Source: Sparassis latifolia
Lineage: Eukaryota; Basidiomycota; Agaricomycetes; Polyporales; Sparassidaceae
DNA: 64,000 nt
Assembly (NCBI GenBank): GCA_018466975.1
Contig: CM031561.1
Location: 1,488,001 to 1,552,000 of the forward strand
Direction of reading: 5' to 3'
The notes under the pieces were generated by a model, which was given only the letters and a program-made list of their open reading frames with translations, was not told where the DNA came from and did not search any database. The position numbers and the translations under genes are program-made. Each line of letters opens with the position of its first letter. Position 1 is the stretch's first letter. Below are positions 3,775 to 21,679 of this stretch, piece by piece.

Positions 3775-3780
3775 GTATAG
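3775..3780 (+). repeat. Target site duplication, left copy (GTATAG)
   Basis: GTATAG directly precedes the left terminal inverted repeat and is repeated exactly right after the right terminal repeat at 21264-21269. A perfect 6 bp duplication at both ends is the expected footprint of one transposition event. Confidence 0.9.
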
Positions 3781-3805
3781 TATGGCGGCCTGTTCTGGAC
3801 AAAAT
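3781..3805 (+). repeat. Left terminal inverted repeat
   Basis: Aligned with the reverse complement of 21239-21263, the first 10 bases are identical, base 11 differs (T against C), bases 12-21 are identical, base 22 differs (A against G), and similarity fades after base 25. Confidence 0.9.
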
Positions 3806-3839
3806 ACAAGCAGATGTACAGGGGGCCCTCGACCTTGTA

Positions 3840-4062
3840 TTCACGCCAGTTCACGCGCATTCATCCGAGTGCATCGTGCACGTGACTGTGCATCTGCATG
3901 CATTCAAACGCATCGGGGCGCATTGGGCCAAATACAGCTCCTCTGCATCGATGCGCATGAATGCATGCATCTGGATGCATGTGTTCTCATTCTCGTTCTC
4001 GGTTCCGGACGCATGCATCTGCATGCACCCATGCATCGAGTGCATGTCGCTCCTGCCTCTCC
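3840..4062 (+). repeat. Left subterminal ATGCA/GCATGC-rich repeats
   Basis: Short palindromic words (GCATGC, ATGCAT, TGCATC, GTGCATC) recur many times in about 220 bp between the left TIR and the integrase start. The word CATCCGAGTGCATC near 3864 also occurs inverted near the right end, around 20953-20966. Subterminal arrays of this kind are commonly transposase-binding sites; that role is inferred. Confidence 0.75.
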
Positions 4063-4126
4063 GGTGAGCCACCTTCATCCCTTCGAGCACTTGTTTCTCT
4101 GCTCCAGGAACTTGAGGGTCCGCGAT

Positions 4127-5919
4127 ATGACAGAGCGGTTGGACAACATCCGTCGAGCCTACCACACCCTTGGAGATCGGGTGAATGTTGCTCTGCGAAC
4201 ACAAGTTGGGGATGTACAGCGATTGAGAATTGTACGTTCTCAAGCACTCTCGCTTGCCTCTGCTGCTGAAGTGGTCAGTATCTCTTCTGGGAGCATGTTG
4301 AACATCCACTGACCATCTTCCCAGCACCGCTCTGTCATTCCTCCGGCTGAACTGGTTCAACTTCGGTCCAACATTGCTGCCATTATTGAGGACCTGGACG
4401 CGGCTTCCCATCGTTCATCCGATCCCGCTGATAGACCCCCTCTCGAGGTCGTCAAGCGAACTCGCACTGGCACGCGGGGCCGCCCAAAGATCACCATTGA
4501 GCCGACCTTCCTTAAGTTCGCCATGGACATGAGGTCAAACTCGGACCTCGGACGCTTTTTCAACTGCTGTACGAGGACAGTGCGTCGTCGCGCCATAGAG
4601 CACGAACTCAGCATACCCGGTTTACCCGTGTACACAGAGCTGCAGGCCACGGACGGCTCCCTGCTTCGTCAGTATCACTCAACCCCAGCCCGTCCCTTGA
4701 CGTTGTCCGACAATGAGCTTGACCACGCCCTTGGTAATATCCTGGAGGTGTTCCCTCACTTTGGACGTAGGATGATCCATGGCCATCTCAAAGCTCAGGG
4801 TCAAAGTATTGCACGCAAGCGCATAGAAGCCTCGTACGAGCGAGTGCATGGTGCACCGGCCATCTTCGGTGCTCGACGTCCACTAGTGCGACGCAAATAT
4901 TCAGTACCTGGCCCACTTTCCCTTGTTCATCATGATGGACAGCACGGTGCGTTTTGTCCGCTCTGTTCTGCCAGTACTTATTGACTTTTCTGCAGGGCTC
5001 ATCCACTTCAAACTCATTACGCATTGCTTCATTGATGGTTATTCACGGTTTGTACTTGGAATCCGAGTGCACAGCAACAACCGCGCATCCACAGTGCTGC
5101 ATTTATTTCAGGATGCAGTGGATCAATTTGGAATTCCAAGCCGTGTACGAGGGGACCATGGCACCGAGAATCTCGGCGTAGCACAGTGGATGGAGGAAAA
5201 TAAGGGTTTAGATCGGGGATCATACATTTGGGGCCGGTGCGTGAATAGGCCTTCACTATGCAGGAACTCTCACGGACGTGATGGCCAGGAGCGTTCATAA
5301 TACTCGGATTGAACGTTTATGGGTTGATGTGACCTCCGGGTACGGTGAGAAGTGGCTTATATTTTTCTGTCAGCTCGAGATACACTGCGGGTGGGACATC
5401 CACAACCCTGACCATGTGTGGCTACTTCACCATCTATTCCTACCTGCCATCAACCAAGATGCTTTGGAGTGGGCAGAGGCATGGAATGCACACCGCATCT
5501 CAATGCAGGATTCTCGTCCCCGAAGCCCACGGGATATGTTTACCTTTGGAATGGTCCAGGAAGGTCCACGTGGACTCGAGCAATTCTTAGAGCCAATTGA
5601 TGACCTTACTGGCGAGTCCCTAGACGATTTTGGCATTGATTGGGGCACCTATCGGGATGACAGAATCATGTCACATTTTTTTGAGCACAACCCCATCGAA
5701 AGTGCAACATTTACCCCGAGTTCTGCTCCCTCTCACCTGGCAGAAGTTGTATGCGATGAACCAAACTGTCCTTTCTCGCGAAATGATGTCGAGTTGCTAG
5801 ACACAATACTTGGGCATGAGTTTGATCTGACTTCTCGTAGCATGGCCGTACGACGTTCAGTGTGGGAGAGGGGGTTAGCGCTGTGCGAGGCAATTGGCCG
5901 GCGGGAGATCGTAGGATAA
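4127..5919 (+). CDS. DDE integrase/transposase with rve core
   Basis: Exons 4127-4273, 4325-4946, 4996-5236, 5289-5919; three introns of 51, 49 and 52 bp; 546 residues. The N-terminal part is helical and basic. The rve (retroviral-integrase-like) core has catalytic Asp about 253 in HHDGQHG, a typical IDGYSR strand, Asp about 310 in RGDHGTEN, and Glu about 345 in HNTRIERLW, with 34 residues between the last two. The C-terminal part carries HCGWDIHNPDHVWLLHHLFL and NAHRI motifs that I recognise from a family of integrase-domain proteins abundant in Agaricomycete genomes. All catalytic residues are present and the frame is open, so it may be active. It lies just inside the left end, next to the subterminal repeats it probably binds. 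It is the likely transposase of the element. Confidence 0.88.
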
Positions 5920-6347
5920 GACACAGTTGTACCTCTTATACAAGCCATTGTGCATATCTTTGTGTGATGGCCTACGCAGGGCAGACACTTCTCGTTCATG
6001 GAAGTCCACGAGGCTATTGATCAGTGCTTCTCTCTGGAAGGTACGATTTCGGCATACAATCCGGCCTCTTACTTATTGTACGGTGTTTTTATGCTCACTG
6101 TTGACCGTCAGTGAGGTGTTGAAACACTTTGAGCACAATCAATTCATACAATAGCTGTGCATAAACAATTTTCTGAATGCCCTGTAGCAATATTGACACC
6201 GGCTGTACAGACATGTCCAGGATAAATAGTGCCGGAATACAGTCTTGCCGCACCATGCAGCCCATAGATTGTTCACCCTGGCGCCCATATTTTGGTCGTT
6301 ATGCCAGTAGGTGAGCCGCCATTCCTTCCCTGCCTCCTCCCACTACC
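5920..6347. other. Transposon spacer without a gene
   Basis: The 428 bp between the integrase stop and the next start hold only short shadow frames. This is presumably the integrase 3' UTR and the promoter of the following gene. I see no repeat or structured element. Confidence 0.5.
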
Positions 6348-8905
6348 ATGTCTGGGCGGCCCTCCAACAGGTCTCGGAATCGCGGTCAGGCATGCGGTCA
6401 CAGTCGTATGAGTACAGGGCATGTAATGTCTGCTGGAGAATTGGCCGGCGCAACTTCTAGGGCGGCATCAATGGAAGCAACGCCTTCCACACAGTCAATG
6501 CCCACAACAGCCACAGGCCCGGGGGAGTCTGCCAGGTCACTAAGAGCCCATCGGAGGGCTCAGCTTCACGGGGATCCCAATGTTGAGGTGAAAGGTGTGA
6601 TTGACATCTACAACTCACCAGGTCTGTTTCATGTTGAAGGGAAATCTCGTAGCAGCAACTTCGCATGATGAACCCATGAGTATATCTAACGAAGGCAACG
6701 AGGAGCTAGTGGTTGATCCTCCTTCAGGTATACTCTTTCTCTACCGTCCGAGGTTTCCAATTAATTTACTCTCGCGCTGGCCCAGCTGCATCATTTGATA
6801 CATATGGTATCATAAGTTCTCCCCTGACACCTGGTACAAAACTGGATGCATGCAGCTGTTCTCATGGCTAAATTATGCAGTCCCAGAGCTACCCGATTCA
6901 AGCATAAATTCCCCCGGTACAGACACGGATGCAGACATGTGTGGTACGTTCAGCAATGCGATCAAAATCTTTGAAGCTGATGAATGAGAGTGTTCACAGG
7001 TGTTGAGCGTGTCAGAAATATGCCAGTGGACATGGATGCCCGCCACGCCGGCGCCGGGCCCATGCGTAGCGAAGAACCACTGGTTAGCATCCCATTGACC
7101 CATGGTAAGTACAACACCCAGTTTCACAGGCCGCCCGCCTCACTGATGCTTCCACCAGAATTACTGGATCATCCGAGTCTTGAAGGTGGAGTGGATGGGT
7201 TCAGCATGCTTTCAGATATTGGGCGCTGCCCGAATTTAATATGGCGGCTCTGGATGAATACAGTACGTGTCTGCGATCTTGTGTTGGTCAATGCCGGCTG
7301 ACAATTTGAGAAGACCACTTCACTTTCCCCCCCAATAATATCAACACGGACTTCTCTACTTGGGGATTCTCCCTGGATTTCCCCCCAGATCAAACGGCTG
7401 TACCGTTCACATCTACATCCACTGATGGCCAGGTTCCACATGCTGTTATCACAACTACATCAGGGATGTCCGAGCAGAGTACATACATGCTGGAAGGCTC
7501 TTCCAAGCCAGACGGACCCAGTTCTGCTGAAGAGAGTAACCCGCCGGGGCGTGCATTCCAAGCTCCAAAGCTTCAGAGAGCTGTGGACGGTTTTTCGGGG
7601 AGCCCGAGAATGGCCACACCACCGGTGTCAGTGATGTTTCAAGCATCAACGCTTGTCACGGACTTTGCTGCCGCCATGTGCAATCACTCCATGTCTGCTG
7701 CTCATTCCAGTGTCACTGAGGGGCTTTCTAGCCCATTATTGGCCCCTTCATTGGAGTGGAATCCGCTTGCGGCCTACGTCAGTGTGGCATATCGAGATTC
7801 TTCCCATGCAGAACAGCTCCTCACCGCTGTCGTCAAGGCTTCTGTGCCTCCGGCAATGCATATTACTCTGAAAACTCTTATGGATGCAATTCTTGTGCGC
7901 TTCTCCTCCGCTTATCCCCCGCGTATCGTCAGTCTTCTCAAAGAGCTGTTGGCCATAAACAATGACTCTTACTGGGTTGCAACTTCCTCCACACCTACTC
8001 CAATCCGCGAACAAGGATATGACGACTTACGTGCCGGCTATGTTGAACACTCACCTCTCAGATACGCAGTTCAAGATGGACAAACTACCTTAGTGGCAGT
8101 AGATCCTGCGCTGGCCCTCCCAGTGCTTCTAAGTCAGAAGCTTGGGCCCGAAACTTCTCTATTTGTGGTCTATGTATCATCTCACCAGGTATGCAAACGT
8201 TGGCCCTCCCATAGTTGGGCTCAGATCTGATGTAATACTAGGCCATTGTACCCAACACTGCTCGTACAGATCAACTCTCTTCAAGTGGAGCCAGTGGTGC
8301 CCCAATTTTACCCAAGGTCGATGCGATAATGGACTTCCTGAGTACCAGCTATCATGTGGACCATGAAGCCATGGAAGGCGTAGCTAACAGGTCCCCGGCT
8401 TTTGGTTTGGCCTATGTCCAGGTTGTACAGATCACCACCGTGCGCCGCATCGCAGCAGAGTTACGTTTGACACCAGGAGTGCAAGGGTTTGGCAGGGCAG
8501 ATGGGGTAAATGTTTTGGTATCTTGGAGCGATCTTGTCACCTGGGCACGCTTGCCGGCGTCAGAACGGAATGTCCGAACGAAGGTCAACAAGGTGAGTAA
8601 TTATACTTGACATTATTAGCAACGTGCTGTGTGGTGACCCCCTGGGAGTGCAGGTTACGGGTATGTATCAGTGGCTGCGGGCGAAAAGAGAGGAAGGTCG
8701 CGACCTCACCAACTACACCGCAGAAGAGACGGAGTTGTTTTCATGGATACAGCTCCTTGTGGAACTGAGTCAACCAACCGCACATGAGGAGAAGACTTGG
8801 ACGGAGGCGGAGAAACAGGTGACAGCACTCCGCTGGCAACCAATTTTGCAACGACTTGATCTGTTTGCAAGTACACACAGCATACAGTGGAGTCATTATG
8901 AGTAG
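6348..8905 (+). CDS. Unrecognised multi-exon transposon cargo gene
   Basis: Start MSGRPSNRSRN at 6348. Exons I can place: 6348-6594, 6656-6727, 6786-6833, 6881-6943, 7000-7104, then an unresolved stretch (7160-7310), a long exon from about 7315 to 8188, 8242-8592, and 8654-8905 ending in TAG. The first introns are all phase 1, so the short 72, 48, 63 and 105 bp exons can be skipped without frame change. The N-terminal half is Ser/Thr/Pro-rich and probably disordered. The C-terminal 400 residues look folded, with a YNSP-like start, a region around GFGRADGVNVLVSW, and an acidic, Trp-containing helical end. I recognise no domain. Its place between the integrase and the oxygenase suggests a role in the element, for example DNA binding or regulation (inference). 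Confidence 0.65.
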
Positions 8906-8975
8906 ACAGAGGTCTCATTATTAATTCCGGCTGTGTCGAAAGTGTATTAAAGTCTTTTTAATATACGCTATGTCC

Positions 8976-10391
8976 CTACATATGCCTAGGGAACCTTGCA
9001 AGAGCAGCTAAGATTCGAGCGGCTACACCGTTGACGTATGCCTCACGCTCAGCTTCTGAAAGGTCAGAGACCATCCGACCACCCAGTTCAACCCACTGAA
9101 AAATTGAGCCACCGGTCCAAAACACAAGAGAGCCTCGCATCCCCTTGGAGATGAGAGCGGTATTGTAGTGGGTAAACAAGGCCGATGGGATGAACACGGG
9201 CACGCCGGGGCCCACCTCGATCTCATAACCAAGTTCTGCAATGCCAATTCGGCAATCTTGCGAAGCATCGAAGGTTCCGTATGGCATAATACAGCACAAG
9301 CCAGGGCCATAGTTGGTGGAGTCGAGGTGAGGCAAAGTGACCACAACACCGACGTTGAAGGCAAACGAAGTAAAAGGGTAGAATAGGGCCTCCAAGCCCG
9401 CATCCTGTCGCAGAACGTAGTCAAGGGTGGCCACGTAATGCGCATATAGAGCAGGAAATTGAGACTTGAATATACCTATGCCAGCTTCTATATGAGGTTA
9501 TGTGTACAGATGTATGGTTTAAACCCACCGTTTACGAGTGCGACCACTGGCTGCAGGAGTTTCCCAAGCTCGTGCACCACATCGATGTGCTTGAGGTAGT
9601 AAAGAGACATGCGAGGCCTCTGTCTCGCTATGGTCAACTTCTGGAGGCTCACATTCAGAACGGAGAGCGCTCACCACCTGATTGTCCCGATGCAAGGTGA
9701 AATAATACTGGAGGAAGTTACCCCGACTGGAGCCAGAATACGTCAGCTTGATGCCACTCTGTCGCAAATACTCTACAGCGGCTATTGCCACAGAGTTGGC
9801 GTGGAAGGTGGCTGGCCCCGTGAAGGAGCGGTAGATGACGAGCCGCCCTTCAGAGTCACAGATGTATGCAGCCATGCTACCTCCAATTTGAGCTCGGTTG
9901 TATGAAATGCACTGGAATTGGTGCTTACCCATTGGCACACTGGATGACTTCTCGCCGGAGTGGGCGCTCTGATTTGACGCGGCTCCCGATGTAACCTCCG
10001 GGCATCTTCCTCTGGGCCAGGGAGATCGTACTCTGCACGCGCGTGCCACTTACCTTCTTCTTGTTGGCATGAGCCACAGCGCGAGTAACTGTCCTCTTCC
10101 CAACGTAATCTCGCCGGCGTGCGTTGCGGCGAGGGCCGACTCCCCCGAGGGTGGCATCGAGGTTGGTTTCTGAATCTGCGCATTCACGAATGGCAGGGGT
10201 TGTGTTGGATATATCCCGTGCACAAGAGCCATCGCTCGGGCTGCAACCAAGATCAGCAGAGCTACCTTGTGTTCAAAAAGTGAAGGGGCATGCCTGTTTG
10301 GGCCCTGCACAACAATAACAGGAGTAGCGTGGTCCGGCTCCTCGGTCCTGCCCTCTTCCGCCTTCCAGACCGCCTCCAAACGCTCTCTCAT
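8976..10391 (-). CDS. TET/JBP-like 2-oxoglutarate/Fe(II) dioxygenase
   Basis: The last exon 9475-8976 encodes a double-stranded beta-helix: FPALYAHYV, then LPHLDSTN with the iron-binding H-x-D, GLCCIMPYGTFD, FIPSALFTHYNT with the distal iron-binding His, and GMRGSLVFW with the Arg expected to bind 2-oxoglutarate, then FQWVELGGR. This order matches the fungal TET/JBP-type oxygenase family (PF20515-like), whose animal members oxidise 5-methylcytosine. Upstream exons: 9619-9529, one ending at 9678, and others back to a likely ATG at 10391. A basic stretch (around GPRRNARRRDYVGKR) lies in the middle. The 5' exon joins are approximate. All metal ligands are intact. Fungal TET/JBP genes are known to travel with KDZ transposons; here the neighbour is an rve integrase instead. 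Substrate is not shown by sequence. Confidence 0.78.
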
Positions 10392-10650
10392 GGACACCTC
10401 CCCTCGATAGTCCAAACCGCCCTTCGCAAGAGCATCAGCGTGATGAAAGAAGTGGGCGAGTGAGCGGGCGTACCGTCAAAGGCATGGCGGCGTTGCTGGA
10501 GCCTGTGTAACACTGGGTGAGCCCATCATGCTGGCCAAATCTGAGGCAAAAGCCGACGACAGATAGCAGGCCGCAGGCAGCGCGAGCGATAGAGGTCTCC
10601 TTCGAGCTCGCACTACCTACCGCCCGCAAGGCCTCTGTACATGCAGCTCG

Positions 10651-10812
10651 CACGGTGGGTGATTTTATGGAAAGCCGCCGGCCTTTGTTGTGCACGGTGG
10701 GTGATTTTATGGCAAGCCGCCTGCCTTTGTTGTGCACTGTTGACGCGTCTCCTTTGTTGACGCGTTTTGTTGTTGACGCGTTTTGTTGTTGACGCGTTTT
10801 GTTGACGCGTCG
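10651..10812 (+). repeat. Tandem repeats: two 42 bp units, then TTGACGCGTTTTG units
   Basis: The unit starting GCACGGTGGGTGATTTTATG occurs twice back to back (10651-10692, 10693-10734) with a few differences. It is followed by at least three imperfect copies of TTGACGCGTTTTG, partly joined by TTG, to about 10812. Open frames here on the minus strand (repeated KSPTVHNKGRRL) are a by-product of the repeats. Confidence 0.7.
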
Positions 10813-11202
10813 CGCCTCCACGTGTACATCCATATGCGGCAGGTGCTGTCCTTCGCCCCCTGGGCTTCTCGGGCTTGACGGGGGTGGCCCTACTCCTTTC
10901 ACGCCTCTTCATCTTGAGGGCGGAGTCGACCCAGAAAATGAGTACTGCATCAAAATGGCGGCGAATACGCCACCCCGATGCGGCTTCTCTTCTCGACGCA
11001 AGAAGTGCGGGCGCGGGCGCGGTGCAGGGACGGGGTGGCAACGTACGAGCGTACGAGATGCGTCACTGGATTAGAGGCTGACGCGAATCTCGCCTTGTAG
11101 TGTCGCAGGTTCACGCCTTCCAGGGAGTCCCTGGCGGCGCACTTGCATTTGGTAGGTGCTCCTCGAGGATGCGCGGAGGTGGACCAGGTGGCCGGCAGTT
11201 CT

Positions 11203-11365
11203 TGCTGCGTCGAGGGATGAAGGACGAGGGGGAGGACGTCGAGCGGAGGCCGGCGATCGGGTGCGGATGGGTAGGTACGGGGGCAGGACCTCGCAATGCA
11301 CCGCCCGCATCTGCGTCCGCGAATTCCGCGCGAAGGTACGTGCACGTTTCTTCGCGTTTCGCGTT
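11203..11365 (+). repeat. 163 bp direct repeat, copy 1
   Basis: From GCTGCGTCGAGGGATGAAGG to TTTCGCGTT. It aligns with 11757-11920 with scattered substitutions (roughly 90 percent identity by eye). Read on the minus strand, both copies give a similar Arg-rich peptide (RARTFARNS), so a shared, decayed coding segment is possible. Confidence 0.75.
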
Positions 11366-11756
11366 AGCTTTTTATGCCCTCGGTGAAAAAGAAGCCAGAG
11401 AAATACCCGCAAGTTCTCGTATTTGGGTTTGGTAGATGGTGAGCTCGTTCAATTTGTACGCCAAAATCACTTCTCACAAGACCTGTGTGCAGAGTTTGTC
11501 CAAGCACGCATAAATTCTGCATCCGTACTCAAACAAATATGTGCTCTAGGGACGACCACCTCATGCTACCAGGGCCCCGGCGTCACCCGCGAAGACCAGC
11601 AGGACGTCTTTCCCCCGTCGTCTCCGGCTGATGCTTTGACCCCCTGACGCAACTCCACTGCCGACCCTGCCCTCGAGCTCTCCTGCATCCATCAGTCCCT
11701 CTACCTCATCGAGCCCGCACCTACCACACTGCGGAGGAGGCGAAGGAGGCGAGCAC

Positions 11757-11920
11757 TGCTGCGTCGAGGGACGAAGGACGAGGGGGAGGATGTCGAGCGG
11801 AGGCCGGCGATCGAGCGCAGATGGGTATATACGTGGGCAGAACCTCGCAACGCACCGCCCGCATCTGCGTCCACGAATTCCGCGCGAAGGTACGTGCGCG
11901 TTTCTTCGTGTTTCGCGTTT
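11757..11920 (+). repeat. 163 bp direct repeat, copy 2
   Basis: Second copy of the repeat at 11203-11365, same orientation, 554 bp downstream. Only the repeated block matches; flanks differ. Confidence 0.75.
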
Positions 11921-13479
11921 CTAGCTGCAGGGAGGGCATCCAGCAGCGACCCCTCATCCTCCTTCCGGTGTCCTCTCTGGTCTTCGTGCTTTTCTTAGCC
12001 CCTGCTGCTGTCCCTGTGGCTGCTCTGGCTGCTGTCTGCGCCGTCCCAGTGCTCTGCTTTTGGTGAGTGCTGTGTGACCTCTTGCTCTGCATGTCCAACA
12101 GTTCGGGTGTATATGCAGGTGGAGCGGACACGGTGCGTACGACCTCTGCATCACGATTCGTCCCTGCCCTCCCGCGCTCATGTTTCCTCCTGTACGCTCT
12201 CCTGTCCACAGACTTGTGCTCCTGTCGGATCCCCGTCTGTGTGCGCTCACGCACGTACTCCCGTGTGCCGAAGATGGTGCAGGAGTCTTCGGCTCGATCC
12301 TTACAGCTTCGGCAGCCCCGCAGATCGGACATTCTACATCAATGTATATCATCTTGATGCTACTGCAATGATTCAAGAGCAAATGTTCGATCTGTCGCCG
12401 ATCCCGTGCTGTTTGTCAGATCACACCTCCCCAGCTGTAGCTCGTGCAAGTCGAGCCCTGAACTCACCACATTTGAGGCGAGGCCGATGTATGAACGACG
12501 GCAACTTGTTACTCTTGGACATGCCAGGCAACTGGTGGGAGGATGCACAACTGTCGCCGAGAGCCAATTCCACTGCGTTGGATTGTAGGACGTCAGATCG
12601 TAGCGCATCGAATGTCAGCCATCTCGTGGCCCAGCGAGCTACAAAGACCAATTTACAAAGTCAACCTAGGAGAGGTGGATTGGCAGCAGGCAGTCAAAGC
12701 TCGATGAGTGCAGCAAGATGAGCTTGTACGTTGAAGCTTGTATCTGTGACGGGGACGTGCGCAAGGTCACACCCGGCGCGCCTACCTCTCGACACTCATC
12801 CATGTATGTCTTCGCGCACTCGGTCGCGACATCTACGGCTTCGCCGCGTGTCCCCATCGGGCGGTGAAGTCTCTATCGACATCTGGCGTTCGGATGACAC
12901 GCACCGAGCCGTGTTCTCTGTCCTTGCGCCCAGTATTTTGCCTTCATCATTTGTGTCGCGTGTTGTCCAAGACGGAGGTCAGAGGTCTGTCGAATGGGTA
13001 AGCATCTGCACTGGCATCTGTTGTTTCCCTTTTCTTGTCTAACTGATACTGTCATAGACCCTTCAAGACTATCCACTCGAGGCAGAATAGCAACGCTTCG
13101 TCACGTACGCCCGGCGTATTCGCTATTGACTGCGCCTCTAACGTCCAAAGCAATCCACCTGGCGGGCATGCCGCGCAAGAGCTCGCGTGTGTAAACCTGT
13201 GTATTCATGGGTGGGCGCATGTAAAGCTCTTTGCTGTGAGTGTGTGTCATGGCCCCGACGACACGTCCGACCGCAGAAAGATGAGACACCGATCTCGGCG
13301 CGGTTTCCCAAGGTGCTGTTGGAGCTCAACACCACGCCGAATTACAAGGTGCTCGTGTTGGATGTGCAAACGCGCGTGCGGAGTTGAGCAGGAGCACACC
13401 ACGGTCGACGCTGTCCTGTGCATAGAGCCATTGGTGCTCTTGCAAGATGGGTAGCTATTCCTGCTCGATTTGTTCGCGA

Positions 13480-15910
13480 CCGGCTTACTGACCGATTTGC
13501 AGCATCGACAGGCAGCGGCAAGTTGGAGAACCGCAGACTCGCCATCAAGACCAGCTCAGCGTTCCCACACTCTAGAAGAAGGGTTCAAAGCTGGCAAACC
13601 AGGTGCCCGCGGCCGAGTTTGTCCTGGAGAGTTTCGGAACGTGGTAGGCTCTGTGGCATCAAGACTCTCGATTACTACCTCGAGCGCAGCCGCGTTGCTG
13701 GGGCCCCTTCCGGAGAGCGGAATTTTCATATCTTCTACCACCTCGATGCCGGTGCTTCTCCGGGGGAGCGGCAGCACTTGCACCTCTCAGAGAAGACAAA
13801 CTATCGCTATCTCGGACAGTGCACCGCTGCGGGATGTGCCCATCACGGCCGGGACGAGGACGCCGTGCGGTTTGATCAGTTGAAGATGGCGTTGAACAAC
13901 GTGGGATTCTCGAAATGACATGTCATGCAGACGTGCCAGTTGGTTGCCGCCATCCTCCATATCGGTAACCTTGAGTTCCATGGATCGCTCCCGGAACGAA
14001 GATGCCGCCGTCGTGCGTAACACGGATGTCCTCGATATCGTCGCAGATTTCTTGGGCGTGCAGCCGGCAGCGCTGGAAGCGGCGCTGTCATACAGGACGA
14101 AGATGTTGAAAAAGGAATTGTGTACAGTCTTCCTGGATCCCGACGGTGCCTCGGACAACCGAGACGAACTCGCAAAGCCCCTGTACTTCCTCCTATTTGC
14201 ATGGTTGAATGAGCATATCAACCAATGCCTTTGCCGCGATGACTTCAATATGTTCATTGGACTATTTGACTTGCCCAGCCCCCAGGACATGACTAGCCGG
14301 CCGGACTTCCTGGATCAGTTTTGCGTCAATTACGACAACGAGCGGTTGCAGAACTTCAAGCAGAAGAAACTCTTCGAGCGTCATGTCAGCGAGTACACAA
14401 CAGAGGGCATCTGCCGCTTCGTTCCCCAGGTGCCGTACTTTGACAACTCGGAGTGTCTGCGCCTGCTGCAGCACAAGCCTGGTGGTCTTATTCATATCAT
14501 GGATGACCAGCCGAGGCGCCAGCCGAGGAGGACGGACCACACCGTGGCCGAGTCGTTTGCGAAGCGGTGGGGCAATCACACATCCTTCAAGATGGGCACG
14601 ATGGATCGCACTAGGTTACCCCACGTTCACTATCAATCATTTCAGCGGCCCCGTCATGTACTCGTCGCACGAATTCCTCGATAGGGATTTGGATGCCCTA
14701 AATCCTGATTTCGTCTCTCTTCTGCGCGGTGCATCTGCGAGCACAACCGACGCTCCTTCAGCTGATGGCTCAGGTTCCATCAACCCTTTCGTCCGGGGAC
14801 TGTACTCCGCGAAGGCCATTGCTACTCAGGCCCATCCTCGAAACGAGGATACCATCGTCGCAGCGCAGCAACCGGTTAAGCCAATGCGCGCGCCGTCGAT
14901 GCGCAGGAAAAACACGATTAAGCGGATGCCGACGTTGAAGGAAGGTGACCTTGACGAAAAGAAATGGGAGGACAAGGAGCCCCTAGGTACTGTGGGTAGC
15001 GGTGGTGCACCGTGCATTGCGGGCGAGTTCGCGCGCGCTGGATCGTTCTTGAGACCCTCGAGGAAACCCAATCATGGTATGTGTTCTGCATCAACCCCCA
15101 CGACTCACAGCTGCCAAACCAGCTGGAAGAAAGGTGGGTCAAGGGCCAAGTCAGGAGCTTGGGACTGGCAGAGATCGCGCGGAGATCGATGAACGTGTTC
15201 GAGGTGACTATGCTACGGACGAGTTTGTGCAGAGGTACAAGGCCCAGATATCTTCGTTGGCGCGGTCGAAGGTGATCCTCGAGAAATGGTCAAGCAGGCT
15301 AGGGCTACAGGAGAAAGACATCGACCTTGGTCTTCAGAAGGTGTGTTCCCTTCAGCTCGGGTGAAATCTCTGATCGTTAACGAAGATGTATAGGTGTTCC
15401 TGTCGCAAATCGCGTTCCACTTCCCCGAGGACGATCCTCGTTCCAAGGATATTGAAGAGCTCAAACGCAACAGATTGCGTGACGCTGAGGCTGAGGCCGG
15501 CCTCAATCCATGAGGATAGGGTGACCCTTATGCACTGTACGCTACGCCAGGCGCGGATACATCACCCTACGAAGAAGGCGGTTACAATGACCCGTTCAGC
15601 CAATCAAGTCAGGTTCTCCCTCTGGTTGCAAATACATCTCCGTCCCAGCGTGCCGATATGTACGATGAATACGACGAACGGAAGTCACTGCGGAGCGATG
15701 ACTACGATGGTCGCAGCGCCTTCACTAGCCAACGCGATAACGACTCGACGTCCAGCTTTGGCACCGGCGCGCAGAATGACATCTTCCAGAATGCGTCTAC
15801 CCTCGGGCCTGGCTCCGGCTCTGATGCAGTTACCTCCACCCCTGCTGCAGCGCCGCGTCCATGCCTGCCGCGTCACTCACGTCCACTCCCGTGGCAGCCC
15901 CGCTGACCTC
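13480..15910 (+). pseudogene. Decayed myosin-motor part of a myosin-chitin synthase gene
   Basis: Fragments in changing frames follow the order of the myosin-like motor domain of basidiomycete chitin synthases: a degenerate P-loop (STGSGKLENRRLAIKT, where the family has ETGSGKS), VPAAEFVLESFG, GRLCGIKTLDYYLERSRV, NFHIFYHLDAGA, TCQLVAAILHIGNLEF, VRNTDVLDIVADFLGV, WLNEHIN, GNHTSFKMGTMDRT, YPTFTINHFSGPVMYSSHEF, TWYVFC-like SWYVFCINPHDSQLPNQLE, then the linker ADMYDEYDERKSLRSDDYDG. At least five frame changes or stops interrupt it (for example near 13600, 13918, 13985, 14630, 15510). The membrane part and catalytic QxxRW chitin synthase region are absent. It is a captured, dead gene fragment inside the transposon. 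Confidence 0.85.
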
Positions 15911-16773
15911 AGACACGCCCGCCCCCCCCCCCCCGTCCTCGTCACCCGCGAGGCCGAAGAATGCAAAGAACACGAACGGGCACACGATGGTCACCCAGAT
16001 CTCCAGCATGTGGCCGCTGCCCTGCTGTGAGGCCCCATCAGGTCATGATTTTGCAACGGCTTTTGTGGCTAAAAGGTTTGGACATAGTGCTGCTCAATTT
16101 TCAGCGGATTCTCCTAGCATAAGCTCATAGACATACCCTAAGTTATATACAATCTCTCTGAAGTTTTAAACTGTAGCGCGGTATGACACGGACATATTCC
16201 CATCCACCATTCGCAGAGCTCGAGGAGCCACATGAAGAAGACAATTGGAGGACACACCTGAGACCAAAGATGAGCATCAGACTTGGAGATCGAGGAGTTA
16301 GAGCTACAGACAGCGACCGAGTACATGGGGGCCATAAGCAGTACTGCAAGTGACTGAACGGGGGCATACAGGACAAGGTAGACCTGGGCACAAATCTTGC
16401 GACTTGCTTGGAGCGCGAGCTGGCGGCAACTAACAAGCTGTCTCTACTAACATGCGGCCCGGGGGTCTCGGTGCCCCACTTTATGACGGACAAGGACAAA
16501 TATACATTCAAGTTTGATGACGCCATCAATATCACGCTCATTTGCTAGGAACAAGGGGAGGCATGGGATATATGTAAGGTGGATGCTTCCACCTGATCCG
16601 TATGCGCGTTGCCCGGGTGAGGTTGCCATTCCATGTCAATTCACAAACGTGTAATTTCTCTGATTCCCTATCTACCATGCTCTCGTGGATCGGTAAGGCT
16701 GACCCATGCACCGATTCCCCATATGAAACCATGCTGGAGTGATGTGATGGCTCTATGAGTAGAACGGAAGTAG
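15911..16773. other. Transposon interior, no gene recognised
   Basis: About 860 bp after the pseudogene. It contains a poly-C run near 15920 and short shadow frames. One hydrophobic stretch reads on the minus strand around 15935-16000 (LEIWVTIVCPFVFFAFFGLA), possibly another captured scrap, but it is too short to call. The rest is presumably 3' UTR of the HECT gene. Confidence 0.4.
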
Positions 16774-19700
16774 CTAGAGCACGTTGAACCCTTCTCCAAC
16801 CACCAATGGTGCGTGGAACCAGGCTTCAAACCACAGAGCTTCATCTGCGCGAACATCCTCCAACAACAGATTCTGAAGTCCCGGACTCATGATAACCTCA
16901 GCCCTCATGAAGCATGCCCCATATCGAATCGGTGGAATCTGTAGGTGCATGTCGAATCAGCTACCACTGCAACATGTAGACTGATTAAGGTGAACTTACC
17001 TTGTCTATGTCATCGAGATCCTGTCCACCGCCATAAGCTGGAAGACGATGGGTGAAGGCGAACTTTCCGACAAAAGGTAGGTGATCCATTACACCAGAAT
17101 GTCATCATGGTATAGTACACCACTCACTTGCAAATCCCAGTTGTCACCCAGTGGCAGCAGATCCGAGCCGCTCATCATCTTCAGAAGTTGGCGAACACGA
17201 TACACAGGGTTCTTGCATTCAGCTTCATACACAACAGGATCAACCATACCATGGAGGTAAGGATGATTCGGGTGCCCCATGCCTGTCAGGTAACGCAGAA
17301 CCAACTCCTTGAACTTATCCTCTGAGGCCCGCTCCTCTGCCATCAGGTCAAGTTTCTGCTCCGAAGAAAATTCCAGGTGGCTGAGCACCTGGTCGATATG
17401 GACAACACGGCGATTGTACATCGCAGTGAGTAGTGCCTTGGACTTCCCGGCAAATGTCTTGGTATGAGTTGAGTACCGTAGCATGACGTGTCAAGAAATG
17501 TACATCCGCACCTGCATGACATTGTGTCCTGGCCGCAACTCCACATCGAAACCTGAGATGAACGCTTGAAGGTCAGGGTGATTGGAAGGATCGTGGTGGC
17601 CGAGGAGAATGCGGGATACAAGGGAGCGCTCGATGCCAAGGTGCTCCTCCTCACCAATAGAACCCGACGTCAAAGTGTTCGTCTGTTCAAAACACAACCA
17701 GATCAGATGGCGAGATATCAGTCAGAGAGTACGGGAACACCCACAGTGATATCAGCATTGACAAGGAGAATGCCGAGGTCACTCCGATGATTCATTGCTA
17801 GTGCAGCCACACCGTCCCAGTCATACCATGGCTTTAACACAGCAAACTGCTTTGGATCCAGGGTTGATATGAATGCCCGGTCAACCAGAAGACTGGGGCG
17901 CCCATCAATTACAGCCTGGAGGAGAAAGGGAGACACCGGCTCTGGACCCAAACCTAGATTGACAAGGTGCATAAGGCATAAAAACCCAAAGGCCTGGAGT
18001 GCACACTGCCGTGGCCCGACGGCATCAGTGGAACTGTGATAACAGATTGTCTTATATACCCCATGTTCGATCCAAAAACCATCTTGGGCGGTGATCATCA
18101 CGATGGCATCTCGAAGAACTGCCTTTTCAGGCCCTGCACCAACACCAGCGTCTCTGTCATACAGTGCACATTGAATGGTCAATGGAGGGAAAAAGAAAAC
18201 AGAGACATACACTTGGAAACACCTTCCTGGGGATATCAGTGCAGCCAAGGATGCAAAATTGCATCTTACACCAGGTATTGCCCTCTCGAGGGAGGCCTGA
18301 AAATCTTGATGAGAAGGCTGACCGCTGAAATGCCACAAGACTAGAAAGAGCAGTGCTCGAGCAGCAAGAGCAGTAGTAGGCGCTTCGATATAGACATCAG
18401 TGCCTTCAGGGAACTCAGCGGGAAGGAGGTCTTGCACAACGTCTTGCCAAAGTCGGACTTCACGCCACGTGGCTGGCACCAGCGGCTCTATCGCGCGCCG
18501 TAAGGTGATGGATGGCGATATACCCTGCATAATTGTAGCGTGCTGTGAAACAATAGGTGGCACTGTGAGGGACTTACTGTGGCAGCGAGGTGTACACCGC
18601 CCGGGAGGCCGGAATGTTCACCGTGAATCTGTTATGCTCCTTTAATGATGCACTACACACCAATTAAGCTCACGCACTTCTGTGTGGCCCGTTTGGGCTT
18701 CAGGGGTGGGTTCTTGCCGGCGGCGGACTGTAGCGGGACCGTCATTCTGCCATTCAGTTCAGTACAGTCTGATATCCACGAAAAGACTTGAAATCAGTTG
18801 ACTTGCCTCAGTGGAGCTCGAACGTGAATGGGTTAGAGGATTGAGGCTCGTGATCATGTGGTCATGATCCTGATGGCTGTCTTGATAGGTGTTCGTGAGT
18901 GCAGTCAGCGTCAGATGTCCTTCGCGTTGATGACTCTGAGGGGTTGAGTAAGCTGACCATACAATAATCTATTGACAAACATGAACTGGCATACTGACCG
19001 TTAATCGCGATGGTACTGTGGTGGCCATTGTAGGTACATTGGGCCTAGGTTGCAATCTCGCCTGCTCCTGGATGTGAAGTCCAGTCATTGTGGGCACACT
19101 GGTAAACAGATGATGTAGGCTTACCCTTTCTCTGTACGAAATCATACCGTTTAGCGTATCTGGCAGCTAGCAATATCATGTCCGGTTAGGACGCATGTCC
19201 AAGATATAGTTCTATTGGATGACTTACACTTTCATCCGAAGAACTATTCCCCGCATCAACATCGCGTGAAAATCTGGCCGAATGGGTACCCATCGTGCTT
19301 AATGCAAAATGTACAGTGCAATCATCCTGGCAGGAGATTGGATTCTCTTCATGAATAGTTGGAAGCATGACACGCGCGGGGAAGCAGCGGTGACTTTGGT
19401 CACGCAGCTGCACTGTGCGAGCTGAGCCATCCAGGGGCAAAATGTTCGCTACCGGGCCGCGAAGATTTCCGTATCTTGGTGCTGGGTGAAATGTCAAGGG
19501 CAGCCCGCTAATATGAGAATGTCGTCTTGGATGCGCACCTATCATTAAAAAGAAATCAGAGCCGAAATGATTCGCTGTCGAGGACCCGAATGGTGCCACT
19601 TTCAGGGTGGACAGTGTGAAGTTTGTCGGCGTCAGGTTGCGATTGGCCTGGTACATCTTTTGACCAGTGCGCGAAGATCGTGCAGCAGGGACCATCAGTT

Positions 19701-20899
19701 GCCAAGTCAAAGTCGAAGGGGCATATGGCTCCCCATTGGGACGCTGTGCCAATTCGATGCCAAGTAGGCCACAGTGTTGAACCACTTGTTTGTCGAAGGC
19801 CTCCCATACGGGCCCGTCATTGCCCTCGAAGTCTACCTGAAAGAGTAAGTCTGCCCGATGGAGGGCGCGCTGCACAGCTGCCACCTCATCACCATCCCAT
19901 TTGAACTCTGGTGAAGGCTGATCAAACGCAGAGTATGTCGATCCTCGCAGCTATTTACAGCCATTAGAGGACCACGAAACAGCCGTGGCAACGTAAGACT
20001 CACTACATATGGCAGGAACCCAATCATGAAGCTTGTGTGAGTATCTACAACTGTGGCCCCAGACGGGCCCGCGGTGAGTGCCGGCTGTGGCGCTGATGTA
20101 CGAAAGCGCTGGGTGGTAGTGTTGCCTCTGCGCGTCGCAGCAGCATTTCTTGCTATCTGAGAAGGGGTAGTCCGGGTACTGGCATGACGTTGATAGCTCT
20201 CGACACGGCGATCGTTGGTGGATCCAGGTTGCATCTGACGAAGACCGGCATAGGCGCCAATGGGGGACAATGTCGAGACAGGGGTAACCGAGGCAATAGA
20301 CACAGCCGGGGGAGATGATATTTGAGTGACGCTCCGCGTCGGAACCGGCACCGAGGCGATACCTCTTGAATTAGGCTGAAATCGAGTTCGAGCACTGCAG
20401 AACAGGGTGAGTGTCATCCTGGCAATGGAATGGCAAGATTGGTGTCTCCTGACCTTGGCCTTGGAGTACTCAAACTTTGGTGCAGACGCCAAGGCGCCCC
20501 ACACTCACAGAGGGTCTCGGGAAACCAGTTGTTAGCAGTCTAAATTGTTTAGCCTCATGCAGAACGGTCATCCGAGAATTCAAGGGCACGCACTGAGTAG
20601 AATCCACCACAATCAGTGGCGATATATCCCCCCTTGGCCATCGCAACCAATGTGCCAGATTGAGCTCGAATTGTGTGCATGATCCAAGGGTGTCCACAAC
20701 CAGAGCATGGCTCCTGTGCACCATTGGCTTCCTAGGGAGTGTTCCGTCAGTGGCATGAGTAGCAAGAAGGGGCTGTGCAGACATATCGCGGAGGCTCCCC
20801 AGGCACCATTATAACAAAGGCCCCGCATCCTTGACAGTCTGCCAGGACGCAGTCATCCCGCTTGGCAAGTAAGACCAGCGATTCCATGCTGTGTAGCAT
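16774..20899 (-). CDS. HECT-domain E3 ubiquitin ligase-like protein, transposon-borne
   Basis: C-terminal exons are well placed: 17682-17512, 17457-17128, 17062-17000, 16938-16774, with one ending at 17745 before them; introns are 54-65 bp. The N-terminal exon (ATG at 20899 or 20887) has a Cys-rich zinc-ribbon-like stretch (ADCQGCG ... CTAPSCYSC). Ser/Pro-rich linker and several medium exons follow (20.5-18.6 kb). The C-terminal 350 residues resemble a HECT domain: a large N-lobe, FISGFDVELRPG, a helical block ending LVLRYLTGMGHP, FAFTHRLPAYGGG, and a C-lobe with Cys in YGACFMRAE at the place of the HECT T-C-F catalytic motif. Similar genes are repeated in Agaricomycete genomes. I could not make one join near 18578/18543 keep frame, so a break or mis-splice there is possible. 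Role in the element is unknown. Confidence 0.68.
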
Positions 20900-20947
20900 G
20901 ATGCGAAATGCGGGTAGAAGAACACACCACATATACAAAATTATCTC

Positions 20948-21238
20948 CGGCGGTGATGCACTCGGATGCAGCAGAGTGCATCGGGATGCATGAGGATGCA
21001 CCAGCGCAGCATGTCAATTGACACACCTCACAAGGCATATCCTGAGCTCCCGACGAACCAGTTGGATGTCTACGTCGTGCATCCACATTCACCGGTGCAG
21101 GTGCATGCATCAGCATTCATCTGCATTCAGCTGCACCGGTGAATGCGGATGAATGCGGGTGAATGCGGAGGAACACAGGTGATCATCGATGATCATCGAT
21201 GAAAGCGGATGAATGCAGATGAAGGGGGAACACACCGA
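20948..21238 (+). repeat. Right subterminal repeats (GATGCA, GAATGCGG, GATCATC units)
   Basis: Dense short repeats just inside the right TIR: GATGCA words at 20956-21000, ATGCATC/GCATTC words to 21130, then GAATGCGGAT-type units and two tandem GATCATC units (21181-21200). They mirror the left array in word content and orientation but are more regular. Confidence 0.75.
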
Positions 21239-21263
21239 TTTCTGTCCAGAACGGGCCGCCATA
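21239..21263 (-). repeat. Right terminal inverted repeat
   Basis: Reverse complement matches the left end of the element; see 3781-3805. The outermost bases GGCCGCCATA are directly followed by the second GTATAG. Confidence 0.9.
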
Positions 21264-21269
21264 GTATAG
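21264..21269 (+). repeat. Target site duplication, right copy (GTATAG)
   Basis: Exact copy of 3775-3780, immediately outside the right TIR. Confidence 0.9.
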
Positions 21270-21579: not shown

Positions 21580-21679
21580 NNNNNNNNNNNNNNNNNNNNN
21601 NNNNNNNNNNNNNNNNNNNNNNNNNNNNNNNNNNNNNNNNNNNNNNNNNNNNNNNNNNNNNNNNNNNNNNNNNNNNNNN
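21580..21679. other. Assembly gap (100 N)
   Basis: Exactly 100 unknown bases, the usual placeholder for a gap of unknown size. The 5' part of the HBS1 gene is missing into it, so real length is probably greater than 100 bp. Confidence 0.95.

Follow-up and report, generated by a model that had tools for sequence, protein, structure and literature searches.

We analysed a window of 64,000 nucleotides from the polypore Sparassis latifolia (GenBank assembly GCA_018466975.1, contig CM031561.1, positions 1,488,001 to 1,552,000), a stretch of contig C10 in a genome assembled as 22 contigs (41.4 Mb). The analysis confirmed a real, well-delimited transposon of 17,483 bp at window positions 3781–21263. 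The element was filed as IS3EU on its termini, the length of its target-site duplications (TSDs) and the domain of its transposase. We consider it probable that this is a cut-and-paste IS3EU transposon, resident in a polypore, that carries its own TET/JBP-like enzyme for relief from silencing. The features that delimit it, and the two genes on which this reading turns, are as follows (window positions):

3775–3780, no strand: left TSD, GTATAG, read from the sequence
3781–3805, plus strand: left terminal inverted repeat (TIR), 22 of 25 bases matching the right TIR
4127–5919, plus strand: transposase gene, its model drawn by eye with splice signals as a guide and with the homologue in the copy on contig C5
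8976–9932, minus strand: TET/JBP-like dioxygenase gene, a 286-amino-acid model in three exons, the first of which may extend upstream
21239–21263, minus strand: right TIR, 22 of 25 bases matching the left TIR
21264–21269, no strand: right TSD, GTATAG, read from the sequence

The inverted ends of the element start with TATGGCGGCC. Read inward, they are TATGGCGGCCTGTTCTGGACAAAAT and TATGGCGGCCCGTTCTGGACAGAAA, which are 22/25 identical and lose all similarity beyond that point. An earlier note, made by a model from the letters of this DNA, had described the ends as inverted copies set within a perfect 6-bp TSD; the perfect duplication was found where it was claimed, and the ends are indeed inverted and matching, but the TIRs are imperfect. 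Further end-like sites were absent from the 64-kb window, even with up to five substitutions allowed. Clusters of short repeats, e.g. GGATGAATGC and GCATGCATCTG, lie inside both ends (20950–21230 and 3850–4040) and are possible transposase-binding sites.

The transposase exons (4127–4273, 4325–4946, 4996–5236 and 5289–5919) form an open frame of 546 amino acids. The integrase core is present as D (HHDGQHG), D (RGDHGTEN) and E (RIERLW). The protein matched Pfam rva_4 at E 4.6e-56, which bears out the integrase label that the gene had been given, and it matched rve at E 1.3e-7, 0.4 bits below the rve cut-off. The protein is 89% identical to one of S. crispa. Between the window and C5 copies, the transposases were 77% identical over 545 codons, with a nonsynonymous divergence (dN) of 0.14 and a saturated synonymous divergence (dS). 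The transposase would cut and join at the TIRs and so leave the 6-bp TSDs; here the anatomy is observed, and the chemistry is that of the family.

A check for other copies with the same ends, proposed in the earlier note, was run genome-wide. We used an end pattern of 20 fixed bases with at most three mismatches, and took the reversed pattern as a control. The 41.4 Mb contained 19 matches, compared with two for the control, and 14 of the 19 paired into seven two-ended units, named here by contig:

C10, the window copy: 17,483 bp, TSD GTATAG, exact
C2: 17,460 bp, TSD CTTCTC, exact
C5: 18,560 bp, TSD ACTTCC/GCTTCC, five of six bases
C7: 20,189 bp, TSD GCATGT, exact
C8 (C8:383100-390204): 7,105 bp, no TSD at the TIR boundary
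C11: 1,676 bp, TSD GCGACC, exact
C12: 1,291 bp, TSD GTCATG, exact

Exact 6-bp TSDs thus flank five of the seven units, and TATGG..CCATA termini were found at both ends of six, the right end of the C8 unit reading CATGG. The earlier note would have counted a lack of further copies with these termini as a refutation; such copies exist, and its description of one DDE transposon with cargo is right. The closest relative of the window copy was the C2 unit: alignments 1 kb or longer span 17,024 of the 17,483 bp, and identity was 99.56% over 16,981 compared bases, captured DNA included. Because this second full-length copy is nearly identical, the ends, the genes and the captured fragment must have moved or been copied together. 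Units C5 and C7 are 98–99% identical to one another and form a sister subfamily. C11 and C12 are short units without the genes, and their ends match C5 at 87–99%. The remaining five matches were single ends on C13, C5, C7, C9 and C21. Three single-ended deletion derivatives (C7:1252776, C9:2832241 and C21:93776) have one flank in common, as if they had been duplicated together with their surroundings. The 7.1-kb C8 unit has near-identical ends and encloses reading frames of DEAD/Helicase_C helicases and of DUF6589; no piece of it matched the transposase, and the hexamer CATGAT repeats when its right end is placed four bases shorter.

The TET/JBP-like label of the minus-strand gene was supported by profile comparison but not by Pfam scores, which stayed below the cut-off. 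The window protein is 95% identical to an S. latifolia protein. In an alignment of six TET-like relatives, the H-x-D...H iron ligands were invariant, and they are present also in the window frame. When the profile of these six relatives was compared by hhalign with a Tet_JBP open reading frame (ORF) of C5, the score was 32.9 (E 2.2e-4), compared with 17.2 for the best of 30 shuffles; the reference ORF itself matches Pfam Tet_JBP at E 7.8e-7 but lies below the curated cut-off. A search of solved structures with the TET alignment gave no matches at E ≤ 10. Two AlphaFold models made in the analysis were unusable (mean predicted local distance difference test scores of 39.0 and 33.7). Genome-wide, there were 49 matches to the Tet_JBP family, of which 32 exceeded the cut-off; scores and coverage hardly differed among most of the best matches, which suggests another abundant family of TET-bearing transposons in this genome.

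Comparisons among the window, C13 and C9 copies of the TET exon, the C16 copy being left out, gave dN/dS ratios of 0.143, 0.145 and 0.217. Judged by these ratios, the exon is under constraint. Between the window and C2 copies, 38 of 63 transitions fell at CpG-type sites, compared with 27.7% expected (p 6e-8), a substitution spectrum with the pattern of past CpG methylation. The ratio of observed to expected CpG was 1.01 in the window flanks, 0.84 in the window and C2 copies, 0.77 in C5, 0.74 in C7, 0.53 in C11 and 0.51 in C12. Taken together, the constraint on the TET exon and the clustering of copy differences at CpG support a role for the TET enzyme against silencing by methylation. That is, the element's TET/JBP-like enzyme would oxidise methylated bases on the element's own DNA and thereby relieve silencing. 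Relief of silencing by a TET enzyme is likewise proposed for the elements described in PMC12730594.

Three further features lie within the element:

7310–8607, plus strand: second gene, weakly conserved in C5 and C7 (~32–39% in tblastn pieces)
12161–15949, no strand: segment shared with contig C6, matching in pieces at 92–97%
16774–21013, minus strand: large cysteine-rich gene, modelled in two exon blocks (the HECT-like gene of the earlier note)

The claim that the element holds captured host DNA was correct: the interrupted C6 match at 12161–15949 encloses a myosin-motor-like open frame (13896–14684; Pfam Myosin_head, E 1.3e-31). There were 11 Chitin_synth_2 matches in the genome, none of them on C6. 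Partial copies of the myosin-motor-like stretch (~82–86%) are numerous elsewhere in the genome, and those that were seen do not lie within IS3EU ends. The host gene fragment differs between the two subfamilies, C5 carrying a fragment of a class II tRNA synthetase. The myosin fragment, and the tRNA-synthetase fragment in C5 and C7, would be passive captures. The element shows that a DDE transposon is able to transport, within one unit, host-derived DNA several kilobases long.

The second gene gave no Pfam match (ORF 7310–8230). The cysteine-rich gene was modelled with exons at 16774–16938, 17000–17062, 17128–17457, 17512–17682, 17733–18153 and 18211–18530 in the first block and at 19228–19481, 19539–19905 and 20004–20417 in the second; the model omits the stretch between the blocks and the cysteine-rich N-terminal exons (~20558–21013). 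The gene is conserved piecewise in C5 and C7 and corresponds to a 1132-amino-acid protein in Trametes maxima. For its exons, dN came to 0.25 and 0.47, and dS could not be computed. The proposal that it is HECT-like did not gain support from any of the tests made. Pfam gave no HECT match in either modelled part of the window gene (E ≤ 5) or in two relatives (E ≤ 10), hhalign scored 21.03 where the highest of 30 shuffled controls reached 21.01, and a genome-wide search with PF00632 found four loci, all of them elsewhere. A cysteine in an ACF motif near the C-terminus, a candidate for the catalytic one, occurs in S. crispa, T. maxima and the window model, in a region of unproven homology. By eye, the order of motifs makes a HECT reading look possible, but the tests were negative or at the level of shuffles. 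Neither modelled part had a Pfam match of any kind, alpha-kinase included, at E ≤ 5 in a scan that ran without the N-terminal exons, and a search of solved structures with the cysteine-rich alignment gave no matches at E ≤ 10. This conserved opposite-strand gene may supply a second accessory factor.

Two other loci hold relatives of this gene. At C11:492538-510602, a distant transposase (~50–64% in pieces) is accompanied by an opposite-strand cysteine-rich relative ~15 kb off and by a diverged left end, TATTTGAGGGGC; its right end was not found, and the locus was left out of the copy count. The arrangement suggests the same architecture, and the locus may represent an older element. Contig C9 also has a distant transposase with a cysteine-rich relative close by, both on one strand, unlike in the window element.

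The sister subfamily carries a different TET gene. In C5 and C7, this gene is on the plus strand and adjoins the cysteine-rich gene, whereas in the window it is on the minus strand and adjoins the second gene. No TET match was obtained when the window ORFs were run by tblastn against C5, C7 and C8, and the C5 TET ORF matched C5 and C7 only among the 12 sequences compared. Because the TET genes differ and occupy another place and strand in C5 and C7, separate captures are suggested. The simplest reading is that the related transposons captured TET genes and host fragments separately, replacement of an ancestral TET gene being the alternative. With different TET genes in two sister subfamilies, the TET enzyme behaves as a replaceable module. 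In one genome there are thus full-length copies that are nearly identical, short ones that lack the genes, and a sister subfamily whose TET gene is another, which amounts to a natural experiment on whether TET enzymes carried by transposons shield their own copies from methylation.

Several observations weigh against a working transposon protected by its own TET enzyme. The C2 transposase has three one-base deletions within ~40 bases, and the C5 transposase has one in-frame stop. The window TET model had no Pfam match; among the five relatives scanned, just two matched Tet_JBP, at E 0.016 and 0.11, both below the cut-off (the first, an S. latifolia protein, scored 14.9 bits where the cut-off is 34.9). 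The TET exon is frame-broken in the C2, C7 and C21 copies, its C2 match falling into shifted pieces. Lastly, age, length and coding content vary along with the CpG ratio and could produce its gradient.

The broken TET frames are also what one would expect if the same IS3EU transposon carried its TET-like gene, like its further additional genes, as a passive passenger without a role in transposition, an explanation that we regard as rather unlikely. Host fragments are plainly carried in this passive way, myosin in the window copy and the class II tRNA synthetase in C5. Set against the passenger explanation, the TET exon is open in the window, C13, C9 and C16 copies and constrained in the three that were compared, and two subfamilies hold TET genes independently. 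We therefore retain as our preferred explanation an IS3EU transposon whose TET/JBP-like enzyme would counter silencing.

The core genes of Polinton/Maverick elements are those for PolB, ATPase, protease and capsid. A degenerate element of that kind would share the 6-bp TSD (PMC10045372) and the integrase-type core, but we give it hardly any credence: none of these domains was found in the ORFs and models scanned, some small ORFs falling outside the scan, and the element's TATGG termini and the shortness of its TIRs agree with IS3EU. In favour of an assembly artefact or a chance pairing of unrelated ends is a 100-bp assembly gap (21580–21679) outside the element, ~310 bp beyond its right end. 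This explanation is just as improbable: the interior contains no N, another contig carries a further full-length copy flanked by a TSD of its own, and same-ended units of several lengths occur.

A more specific proposal can be advanced tentatively, and we hold it to be possible though doubtful. In polypore IS3EU elements, TET/JBP would be an exchangeable anti-silencing module, different TET genes having been recruited by sister subfamilies with 77%-identical transposases, and it would be joined by a conserved cysteine-rich partner in the place of the rust alpha-kinase; this partner might be a ligase of HECT type that has diverged strongly. If this is true, the elements would act on host silencing at two levels, one being DNA methylation and the other a protein target.

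The novelty that the earlier note saw in this combination of features is overstated, because IS3EU elements with TA..TA ends (PMC10045372) and TET-bearing IS3EU elements (PMC12730594) are already published. As described in PMC10045372, IS3EU/GingerRoot elements have TA..TA termini, usually 6-bp TSDs and an integrase-like DDE core, all of which the present element shares; beside these general traits, it and its relatives reach ~17–20 kb and carry several extra genes and host fragments, the sizes of other IS3EU elements lying outside the comparison. IS3EU repeats have also been named in Ganoderma leucocontextum. For this particular gene combination, no description was found in the open-licence literature searched, Repbase lying outside that search. 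Among cargo carriers, Starships likewise mobilise cargo in fungi, but their enzyme is a tyrosine recombinase, their hosts are Pezizomycotina and their size goes up to ~700 kb (PMC12134995), unlike the present element with its DDE transposase, TIRs and TSDs. Kyakuja, Zisupton and Plavaka elements are similar in being agaricomycete DNA transposons with TET/JBP genes, and differ in having other transposases; Kyakuja, moreover, has 7-bp TSDs, CA..TG termini and no TIRs (PMC12730594).

The nearest published relatives are the TET-bearing IS3EU elements reported in December 2025 from seven species of rusts (Pucciniales) and from Tuber indicum (Kojima 2025, PMC12730594). According to the main text of that paper, which makes no mention of Sparassis, HECT or ubiquitin, these elements have TAYGG..CCRTA ends, 6-bp TSDs and TIRs of more than 30 bp, and in all of them the TET gene lies between the transposase and an opposite-strand alpha-kinase; for Polyporales, TET-bearing Kyakuja elements are the sole TET transposons that it reports. 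The window element resembles them in its ends, its 6-bp TSDs and the position of its TET gene between the transposase and a large opposite-strand gene. It differs in its polypore host, in an opposite-strand gene that has no alpha-kinase match, in a TIR of ~24 bp compared with more than 30 bp (the TIRs of the sister units C5 and C7 match at 30 of 31 bases) and in a TET protein that keeps HxD, compared with the HxE of the PE type in that paper. We concluded that the kind, a TET-bearing IS3EU transposon, is known, and that its new features are the polypore host, the conserved cysteine-rich gene as partner and the presence of two different TET genes; TET-bearing IS3EU transposons are now extended to a polypore.

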